A stretch of 51,550 nucleotides of DNA from a bacterium (GTDB lineage: Bacteria; Actinomycetota; Acidimicrobiia; Spongiisociales; ZC4RG35): positions 1 through 51,550 of the forward strand of contig JAHEDH010000007.1 of NCBI GenBank assembly GCA_024641285.1, given 5' to 3'. The position numbers and the translations under genes were made by a program. Positions within the stretch are counted from its first letter, which is position 1, and each line of letters starts with the position of its first letter. The notes under the pieces are model-generated. The model saw only the letters and a program-made list of their open reading frames with translations, was not told the origin of the DNA and did no database searches. Shown piece after piece: positions 31,463 through 34,422 of this stretch.

Positions 31463-33283
31463 TCACTCGGATTTTGTCACCAACCGGGTGTCGTGATCGA
31501 TCGTCCAGAGGGCCTCACCGCGATGGAACCTCTCGATGTTGCCGCCGATCGGGTCGAGGCCGGTGCGGTCGGCGATCAATGCCTGCCACGACTCGCGATT
31601 GGTGAAGCCGGCGTAGGTGAGCCCCTCGTTGGTGACCACCGCCGGGCTCCCGTCCAGGTACGTGGAGCCCCCGTATCGGGCGACGATCTCCGCCGACCAG
31701 ACCTCCAGCACGTCCGTCCAGATCCCGGCCGGAGTGCCCCAGGGCTCGATGGTGACGGCGAGGTTCTGGCTCGTCGGCTCGATCACCCTGGCGCCCAGTC
31801 GCTCGCTGAGCCCCGCCGGCAACGGGCTGTCGCTCCAGGCGTTCTCACGATCGATCACCAGGCTGCGGGCGCCCAGAATCACCTCGGTCCCGGCGTCGAG
31901 GGCACGGTTGATCGCTGCGATCCGCTCCGGCGTCGAAATCTGCATCGCGGGGGCCAGCACCAGTTCGAATGCGGTGAGATCGTCGGTCGAATCGACGATG
32001 GCGACATCGAGGCCGAGATTCCTGACGGCTCGATACGCCTCGAACAGGAGGGCGCGATGGGTCAGGCCGCGTCGGTGCGGGTTGATCTCGATCGCCCAGG
32101 CATCCTTGTACGAGTGGACGATCGCGATCCGCGGTCGCGGCTTGGGGAGGTCGGCGCGTCGAATCTCGGCGATCGTGGACCGAACCTCGTCGAAGACGCG
32201 CTCGGGCGTTCCGTCGTGACGGAGCAGCCCGGTGTGGTACTGCTCCTGGCCGTAGCGGGCTGCCCGCCAGCGGAACACGAGGAGGGCGTCGTACCCGTGG
32301 AGCGCCGCCTGCCACATCCAGAGTCGCGCCTGACCGCGGGGGACCTGGGGGTTCTCGTCGGTCCAGTTGACCGGCCCGACCTGTTGCTCCATGACCCACG
32401 CCTGCCCGTCGAGGCCTGACGCGGTGGCGTGGAGATCGAGCAGGTATGCCGTGTCGAAGGGGGTGGAGACGCCGTGCGGATAGTTGTCCATCGAGGCGAC
32501 CCCGGCGAGGCGCGCCACTGCCCGTGCGTCGACGTTCAGGTCCTCGCAGTAGAGGTTCGTCGTGATCGGGATCTCGGGTCCCACCTCGCGCCGGATGCGC
32601 TCGAACTGGATACGGAGGAAGTCGACGGACTGATCGGAGGCGAACTTCTTGTGCGCGAGGCGAAGTGCCGGGTGCTGAGACGTCATCGTGTCCCTGGGGA
32701 GGCGAACCGATTCGAATTCGGGGTACGTCTGGGACCAGAACACGGTGCCCCAAGCCTCGTTCAGTGCGTCGATCGTTCCGAAGCGGTCTTCGAGCCACCG
32801 GGAGAACGCCGACTCGCACTCGCCGCACCAGCAGCGGGCGGAGTCGTGGTTGCCCGGCTCGTTGTCTATCTGCCAGCCGGCGACGGCAGGGTTCGAGCCG
32901 TAGCGATCGGCGAGGGCGTCGGCGATGCGAACGGACTCCCGCCGATACGTCGACGATGTCGTGCAGGTGTGGCGGCGTGAGCCGTAGGCCACCCGCCTTC
33001 CGCGTTGGTCGGTGATCAAGACGTCGGGGTTTGCGTTCATCAACCAGACGGGAGGAGTCGCGGTCGGCGTTCCAAGCACTACGCCCATTCCGGCTTCACC
33101 GATCATGGCGACGGCCTCGTCGAGCCATTCCCACTCGAAACGGCCCGGTTCGGGCTCCATCTTCGCCCAGGCGAACTCCCCGATACGGACGAGGTCGAGT
33201 CCCAGGTCGGCCATCATTGCCACATCGGTCTGCCACCGCTTGCGAGGCCACTGCTCCGGATACCAACACACACCAAAACGCAT
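31463..33283 (-). CDS. Beta-galactosidase, GH42-like
   Basis: MRFGVCWYPEQWPRKRWQTDVAMMADLGLDLVRIGEFAWAKMEPEPGRFEWEWLD, GWQIDNEPGNHD acid/base region, CWCGECESAFSRWL. Alternative start 33292. Confidence 0.9.
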   Translation of the reverse strand: MRFGVCWYPEQWPRKRWQTDVAMMADLGLDLVRIGEFAWAKMEPEPGRFEWEWLDEAVAMIGEAGMGVVLGTPTATPPVWLMNANPDVLITDQRGRRVAYGSRRHTCTTSSTYRRESVRIADALADRYGSNPAVAGWQIDNEPGNHDSARCWCGECESAFSRWLEDRFGTIDALNEAWGTVFWSQTYPEFESVRLPRDTMTSQHPALRLAHKKFASDQSVDFLRIQFERIRREVGPEIPITTNLYCEDLNVDARAVARLAGVASMDNYPHGVSTPFDTAYLLDLHATASGLDGQAWVMEQQVGPVNWTDENPQVPRGQARLWMWQAALHGYDALLVFRWRAARYGQEQYHTGLLRHDGTPERVFDEVRSTIAEIRRADLPKPRPRIAIVHSYKDAWAIEINPHRRGLTHRALLFEAYRAVRNLGLDVAIVDSTDDLTAFELVLAPAMQISTPERIAAINRALDAGTEVILGARSLVIDRENAWSDSPLPAGLSERLGARVIEPTSQNLAVTIEPWGTPAGIWTDVLEVWSAEIVARYGGSTYLDGSPAVVTNEGLTYAGFTNRESWQALIADRTGLDPIGGNIERFHRGEALWTIDHDTRLVTKSE

Positions 33284-33301
33284 CGTGACCATTATGGAGC
33301 C

Positions 33302-33409
33302 GTTTGTTCCCCCTCGGGGGAACAGGCTTGCGTCAGCAAGCCATGGGGGGGACCGAGACCCCCCTGGCTGCCCTAGGGGGCAGCCTGTCCCCCCTGCGGG
33401 GGGACAAAC
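33302..33409. repeat. Compound palindromic element: five consecutive stem-loops with imperfect terminal inverted repeats (REP/MITE-like)
   Basis: TGTTCCCCC..GGGGGAACA; GGCTTGC-GTCA-GCAAGCC; CCA(T)GGGGGG..CCCCCCTGG; GGCTGCCC-TAGG-GGGCAGCC; TGTCCCCCC-TGC-GGGGGGACA; ends GTTTGTTCCCCC / GGGGGGACAAAC. Confidence 0.85.
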
Positions 33410-33990
33410 TGGAAGCTCGAGAAGATGTCTTGAACGACGCCCGAGAGGCGTTCGAGGGTGGCGGCGTTGGCGAAGAACGTGATCTCCCACGCCCGATTGT
33501 CGGCGTCGAGGATGAGCAGACGCGAGATGCCGACGGTGATGCCGTTCTCGGTGCTCGTCAAGGTGATCCCGCGCGCCGGGGCCCCGTCGATCGTGAGGTT
33601 GGCGACCTCGAGGATCTCGACCCCAGGCAGTGTCGACTGCAGGCGAGGGATCTCGCCCTCGAAGTAGCCGATGGCCGGGAGCTCGGCGGGAATGTCGCCG
33701 ACGGAGACGTTGAAGTTCGGGACAAAGCCGTCCGATGCGGCCGGAGCCGTCACCTGGAGCAGCGAGTCCTCCAGATCGACCTGGGCTATCCAGCCGGTCG
33801 GCTGGTCGATGGCGAATCCGAGCTCCGGCACCTCGACGGTCGTCATGGCGTCGATCGGGCCGGCCGAGCTGGTGGAAGTGGCGGAGGTGGTCGAGGTGGT
33901 TGCATCGTCGCCTACGACCGCGTCGGAGCCGGAGTCCGAACAGGCGGTGAGCAGGAGAGCGACAACGAGCACCGAGGCGATGCGTGTCAT
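33373..33990 (-). CDS. Predicted lipoprotein, unknown function
   Basis: MTRIASVLVVALLLTACSDSG lipobox; last codons (VPPQGGQAAP-stop) lie inside the palindromic element. Confidence 0.75.
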   Translation of the reverse strand: MTRIASVLVVALLLTACSDSGSDAVVGDDATTSTTSATSTSSAGPIDAMTTVEVPELGFAIDQPTGWIAQVDLEDSLLQVTAPAASDGFVPNFNVSVGDIPAELPAIGYFEGEIPRLQSTLPGVEILEVANLTIDGAPARGITLTSTENGITVGISRLLILDADNRAWEITFFANAATLERLSGVVQDIFSSFQFVPPQGGQAAP

Positions 33991-34038
33991 TGGCGCGAGG
34001 TTACCGCCGGCGCAGGATTGTGCAGCTACGTTGAGCCC

Positions 34039-34422
34039 ATGGTGTTGGATCCGGCCCAGATGCTGGCGGATGATCGGTATGCCTCCCTGCTCGGCGTCGA
34101 GCTGGTCGGAGCCGACCCCATTGCCGTGGCCATGACCATCGGCCCGGATCACCTCAACTTCCTGGGCGTCACGCACGGCGGCGCCATGTTCTCGCTCGCC
34201 GACTGCGCGTTCGCGCTCGCCTCCAATCAGGCGGGGGCACGGGCGGTCGCCATCGACACCCACCTCGTCTTGAGCGGAGGCTCGAAAGAGGGCGACGTGT
34301 TGACTGCGGTCGCCGAGGAGACGACGCGAGGCAGGACGCTGGGGACCTATCGAATCGTCGTGACCCGATCGGATGATCGAATCGTCGGGTTGTTCACGGG
34401 CACGGTCCACATCTCGAGCTGA
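34039..34422 (+). CDS. PaaI-family hotdog thioesterase
   Basis: LNFLGVTHGGAMFSLADCAFALASN motif; starts MVLDPAQML. Confidence 0.85.
   Translation: MVLDPAQMLADDRYASLLGVELVGADPIAVAMTIGPDHLNFLGVTHGGAMFSLADCAFALASNQAGARAVAIDTHLVLSGGSKEGDVLTAVAEETTRGRTLGTYRIVVTRSDDRIVGLFTGTVHISS

Follow-up and report, generated by a model that had tools for sequence, protein, structure and literature searches.

A REPIN-like dispersed palindromic element in an acidimicrobial genome and DUF559 Vsr-like nucleases as its candidate partners

The element at positions 33302 to 33409 of the window (the whole stretch of 51,550 nucleotides analysed here) is one copy of a multi-copy family of compound palindromic repeats that sit in intergenic DNA and are absent from orthologous sites of a sister species, and hairpin families are associated, family by family, with genes for short DUF559 proteins. 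We consider it probable that the element is a REPIN-like, non-autonomous, dispersed palindromic repeat whose trans-acting partner is a DUF559 Vsr-like nuclease; this partner is proposed because repeats of the same build cluster around short DUF559 genes in several phyla. A broader generalization, to which we give slightly less than even credence, is that DUF559 Vsr-like nucleases could supply, across several phyla, the missing trans-acting partner of a large class of palindromic repeats with G/C-runs; they would then form a second REP-mobilising system, not of the HUH type, with one hairpin family per nuclease.

Architecture, copies and distribution of the element

A preliminary description of this DNA, made from the letters alone, had claimed five adjacent hairpins bounded by terminal inverted repeats with one mismatch, and reading of the sequence confirms both: the stems measure 9, 7, 6, 8 and 9 bp, the spacers between the hairpins are nearly nil, and the ends, GTTTGTTCCCCC and GGGGGGACAAAC, are inverted repeats that differ at one position (Table 1). 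The copy in the window lacks about 14 nt of the usual central loop of about 20 nt, that is, most of the loop. The RNA folding proposed at that stage bore the structure out, given that the RNA of 33290-33420 folds at -86 kcal/mol against -60.0 +/- 4.6 for its shuffles (z = -5.7), none of the 200 being as stable. A scanner that demanded two or more internal hairpins in addition to a terminal inverted repeat returned this element as its sole match in the 51.5-kb window and returned zero matches in three Markov shuffles of the window. The contention that this is not a simple terminator also holds, an intrinsic terminator being ruled out on reading the sequence by the five hairpins and the absence of a T-run. 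Identity with an Rfam RNA is likewise rejected, no family having scored above its curated threshold in the window.

Table 1. Coordinates of the element, its parts and the adjoining genes in the window
Feature	Position	Strand	Basis or remark
Whole compound element	33302..33409		Two inverted halves, H1-H2-G6 and C6-H4-H5, flanking a short central loop
Left terminal inverted repeat, GTTTGTTCCCCC	33302..33313	+	Read from sequence
Hairpin H1, stem TGTTCCCCC/GGGGGAACA, 9 bp	33305..33324	+	Sequence reading, architecture scan, covariation
Hairpin H2, stem GGCTTGC/GCAAGCC, 7 bp	33325..33342	+	Sequence reading, architecture scan, covariation
Hairpin H3, stem GGGGGG/CCCCCC, 6 bp, encloses the variable central loop	33345..33364	+	Sequence reading, copy alignment, scan
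Hairpin H4, stem GGCTGCCC/GGGCAGCC, 8 bp	33366..33385	+	Other copies carry compensatory variants
Hairpin H5, stem TGTCCCCCC/GGGGGGACA, 9 bp	33386..33406	+	Sequence reading, architecture scan, covariation
Right terminal inverted repeat, GGGGGGACAAAC	33398..33409	+	Read from sequence
Downstream neighbour, glycoside hydrolase family 42 (GH42) beta-galactosidase gene	31463..33292	-	Start about 10-20 bp from the element
Upstream neighbour ORF, lipoprotein-like N-terminus, weak PsbP_2 match	33373..34410 (ORF extent)	-	Element supplies the last codons and the TAG stop

The window was correctly said to hold no second full copy, yet about 30 copies lie elsewhere in the genome, a 3.4-Mb draft that is 89.5% complete. 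The element has 30 blastn matches there, and a covariance model (R1), built from 14 copies, detects more than 30, distributed over about 19 sites that each hold a single copy or a tandem cluster of two to four. The alternative that the preliminary description had reserved for a failed copy search, a single-copy structured spacer, is therefore rejected. The consensus of the family, TGTTTGTTCCCCC-TCGGGGGAACA GGCTTGCGCCAGCAAGCCAT GGGGGG-N20-CCCCCC T GGCTGCCCCAGAGGGCAGCC TGTCCCCCC-TCGGGGGACAAACA, describes two inverted halves, each made of two hairpins and a G-run, that enclose a fast-changing loop; the copies are about 110-125 bp long and near-symmetric on both strands, and most of the full ones keep the terminal inverted repeats. 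Under a simple codon model, each of the 18 contexts examined lies between genes or reaches into the end of one by no more than about 40 bp, and many copies lie within 50 bp of a stop codon, often abutting it; the adjoining genes are convergent, tandem or, in a few cases, divergent.

The pairing of the stems is maintained through compensatory changes while the sequence varies. A smaller, independent alignment (A1) includes three stem pairs with double changes and four compensatory changes against 0.6 in shuffles. The larger alignment (A3) gives 26 of 36 pairs and 140 compensatory cells against 46 in shuffles, with the optimum at slide 0, these counts being biased towards structure, given that A3 takes in both strands of quasi-symmetric copies fitted to the model.

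A sister genome of the same genus (G001) possesses the orthologous flanks of at least five copies (L041, L029, L039, L034 and L042) but lacks the element at each, and the arrangement in the metagenome-assembled genome Ww501, which may be the same genome, is as in G001; for a further site (L043) no alignment was obtained in the sister genome. At the site of the window copy, neither the element nor the lipoprotein-like gene beside it is present in the sister genome, where GH42 is only about 100 bp from the gene that follows. The spacers of the sister genome are about 75% alike or worse, so exact junctions and target duplications are not definable at these empty sites, and in the flanks of the copies no target-site duplications were seen.

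Within the order, the covariance model has matches in 40 of 138 genomes. Separate within-genome families, among them those of G054, G135, G015, G025, G133 and G113/G114, differ in their letters and share one layout, in which an outer and then an inner palindrome lead to a G-run and, beyond the variable centre, a C-run is followed by an inner and then an outer palindrome. Exact-pattern scans of the genome_contigs and viral_contigs collections produced no match to the element, and the plasmid collection no DNA match to either the window element or that of G015. When R1 was run on a sample of 398 genomes of the phylum, with eight candidates scored per genome, only the genome of origin was recovered; relatives from the same order were missed as well, so this search says little on distribution.

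Two further observations concern the genome of origin. A 0.9-kb segment comprising one gene and part of an element is duplicated, at 90% identity, between contigs C62 (L032) and C163 (L038), and one element copy lies near a candidate selenocysteine tRNA gene, recognized by eye (L015, contig C79 near 14.4 kb).

DUF559 genes beside hairpin families

So which enzyme could be responsible for the spread of these repeats? Of the linked RAYT or other transposase for which the preliminary description had recommended a search, the RAYT did not materialize: there is no match to the Y1 (RAYT-type) transposase family PF01797 in the genome of origin (89.5% complete), and 134 of the 138 genomes of the order lack one, only four encoding it. 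A RAYT-driven REP is accordingly rejected. The initial label, compound REP/BIME or MITE-like, thus survives in part, as the repeats are dispersed, intergenic, compound palindromic elements with terminal inverted repeats that are missing at the orthologous sites of a relative, and fails for want of the Y1 transposase that a RAYT-type REP requires.

The densest cluster of the family (contig C99) includes, between element copies, an ORF of 113 aa that belongs to DUF559 (PF04480; E 1e-27; 96.6 bits against a Pfam gathering score of 20.6). Among the neighbour genes scanned around the element copies, none recurs apart from DUF559. Around 49 further loci in the order that encode short, full-length DUF559 proteins, hairpins reach 5.6 per kb within 150 bp, and past 600 bp their density is about 1 per kb; at least one hairpin lies within 150 bp at 39 of these 49 loci, compared with 3 of 20 controls (Fisher p = 9e-7), which encode long proteins that possess just the C-terminal portion of the domain and around which hairpins number 1.1 per kb. 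In plasmid records, the 14 DUF559 loci examined, from Alphaproteobacteria, Deinococcus and Cyanobacteria, all show hairpins in the nearest 150 bp; the density there is 8.3 per kb, and at greater distance it is 0.4-0.7 per kb. The enrichment is about 5- to 9-fold in the order and, relative to the far flanks, more than 10-fold in plasmids, as measured against controls unmatched for intergenic length. In Neisseria, Escherichia, Photobacterium and a fourth Deinococcus record, repeats adjoining the DUF559 gene were seen by eye and are unscored; they are palindromic in the Neisseria (L268) and Photobacterium (L270) records, and in Neisseria the gene has a similar repeat on either side, the two in direct orientation.

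Inverted halves with a score of 28 or more bracket DUF559 at 12 of 50 loci and at none of 150 mismatched pairs, a score also reached by 2 of 18 long controls; the near-perfect bracket of G121 extends across about 55 bp, and at several loci the gene lies within the spacer that separates two half-elements. In seven genomes (G121, G015, G054, G113, G035, G036 and G106), the flanks of DUF559 match dispersed elements of the same genome. The genome of origin has a second DUF559 gene (contig C98), and the dispersal of its flanking hairpins, which we had predicted beforehand, was indeed found: they represent a second dispersed family, which has 46 matches spread over about 20 contigs. G053, a genome assembled as one contig, carries DUF559 between two full elements that have 60 matches genome-wide. 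At the level of whole genomes the association of DUF559 with the element is modest (p = 0.011), and 19 of the 40 model-positive genomes, many of them incomplete drafts, lack a strong short DUF559 match.

The units of the second family (L211, C98:2167-2416), arrayed around the second DUF559 gene, begin with a C-run and end with a G-run, between which hairpins lie on either side of a short spacer. In G035, a genome from another taxonomic family of the order, a different G/C-run hairpin repeat (GGTCCCCCCGCAGGGGGGAAAGTACCGCC...) is arrayed in tandem (L009, C107:1781-1843) and also adjoins the DUF559 gene of that genome (L181).

Nine residues (E24, W28, R41, R42, D52, E63, D65, H69 and R77) are invariant in 22 short DUF559 proteins; E24, D52, E63, D65 and H69 are the conserved nuclease residues among them. 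Judging from its AlphaFold model (pLDDT 91.6), the protein would adopt a Vsr / PD-(D/E)XK-like nuclease fold, the model matching 3hrl (E 3e-6), the catalytic domain of I-Bth0305I (E 2e-4) and, weakly, Vsr (E 0.15).

Proposed mechanism and competing explanations

We infer that DUF559 binds or cuts the hairpins and mobilises the repeats. In the action proposed, the nuclease would recognise its own family's hairpins or cruciforms, where it would nick or cut, after which copying or repair could spread the element to intergenic DNA; for the element of the window, the partner would be the DUF559 gene encoded on another contig, within a cluster of the same repeats. By analogy, this suggests that for such repeats DUF559 may play the part attributed to RAYT transposases in the case of REPs.

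Could the relationship between gene and repeat be the reverse of the one proposed? The repeats might be the older targets, themselves spread by something else, into which DUF559 inserts as a homing-type endonuclease gene. The closest solved functional relative of DUF559 is indeed the catalytic domain of a homing endonuclease, and the loci at which the gene occupies the spacer between two half-elements are compatible with such insertion; however, the presence in one genome of two DUF559 genes, each with its own dispersed family, and the intactness of the flanking halves as inverted pairs tell against this reading but, being also expected of a partner gene, are not decisive, and we regard homing as unlikely.

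An origin of the repeats as MITEs of an ordinary insertion sequence, with a DDE transposase that is absent from the draft or unassembled in it, would account for terminal inverted repeats, a length of about 110-125 bp, intergenic placement and absence from orthologous sites. Such an origin appears improbable nevertheless, as no target-site duplication is evident, MITEs have no need of internal hairpins that are conserved and covary, and no autonomous partner with the same ends was seen in the families searched (Y1 and DUF559).

Another scenario dissociates the gene from the repeats altogether: DUF559 would be a Vsr-type repair enzyme and its neighbouring hairpins incidental, both being accommodated in permissive intergenic DNA. 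In its favour stands a DUF559 protein of Caulobacter, VsrA, which is functionally tied to a cytosine methyltransferase and has been construed as an enzyme of Vsr-type mismatch repair (PMC12907096). The strong enrichment of hairpins near DUF559 over distant flanks or long-protein controls, the bracketing by inverted halves and the pairing of each DUF559 gene with a specific dispersed family all run counter to coincidence, and we consider this scenario highly improbable.

Finally, a structured RNA or DNA element with a host function (protection of mRNA 3' ends, transcription buffering, or nucleoid or gyrase binding), spreading only secondarily, is the least probable of these explanations: very stable folds, compensatory changes and the many copies adjoining stop codons speak for it, but the tandem and divergent contexts besides the convergent ones, the lack of an Rfam match in the window, the absence of the element from the sites in the sister species and the near-symmetry of both strands do not fit.

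Relation to known repeats and nucleases

REPINs are REP doublets that are coupled to RAYTs, the REP-associated tyrosine transposases (PMC3116915; PMC3733652). The present element resembles them in being an inverted doublet of palindromic units with a variable spacer, in its intergenic location and tandem clusters, in the repeat cluster beside each partner gene and in the allotment of one repeat family per partner gene. It differs from them in its partner, a DUF559 PD-(D/E)XK/Vsr-like nuclease rather than a Y1 HUH transposase, in lacking the GTAG tag and in having halves composed of two hairpins and a G-run, for five hairpins in total. Because the genome of origin lacks the Y1 transposase, we do not assign the element to the REPIN/RAYT system; the likeness in operation is one that we infer. 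With respect to its fold, the DUF559 protein resembles Vsr and the EDxHD homing endonuclease I-Bth0305I; in contrast to both, it consists of only about 113 aa with no added DNA-binding modules and is tied to palindromic repeats, not to introns or methylation sites.

Few kinds of repeat are as common in bacteria as short palindromic ones, and an enzyme has been named only for those of the RAYT type. The CGTC-tagged REPs of Alphaproteobacteria and Neisseria, single palindromes of 20-40 bp, are reported to have no association with transposase genes (PMC3733652). That DUF559 adjoins a hairpin family of its own in several phyla bears on what spreads these CGTC-type REPs, which have been described without a dedicated transposase (PMC3733652); in plasmid records of Alphaproteobacteria and Neisseria, DUF559 genes adjoin palindromic repeats, whether of the CGTC kind or another. 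In the titles, abstract openings and passages covered by our literature search, nothing links DUF559 to palindromic repeats; most subscription papers lie outside that search, so novelty is unproven, and under the same limit Vsr and repetitive extragenic palindromic repeats are brought together in no paper. For DUF559, a domain of unknown function, the association provides a concrete hypothesis other than mismatch repair. The question of how the repeats spread is testable with a protein of 113 residues and a substrate of roughly 110 bp.

In its dimensions the element is reminiscent of RIME1 of Rhizobiaceae, a 108-bp element with two large palindromes. The two are alike in the length of about 108 bp, the outer palindromes, the terminal inverted repeats, the intergenic placement and the many copies, and unlike in sequence, which is unrelated; the R1 model does not match the RIME1 candidate, as it found nothing in the first 50 kb of the Sinorhizobium meliloti plasmid pSymB, which include that candidate. 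Membership of the element in RIME is rejected, as 250 kb of pSymB yielded only an element of different sequence. That pSymB element (L147:24893-25000), which is probably RIME1, spans about 108 bp, has terminal inverted repeats as well as two outer palindromes, and was found only in plasmids of Rhizobiaceae.
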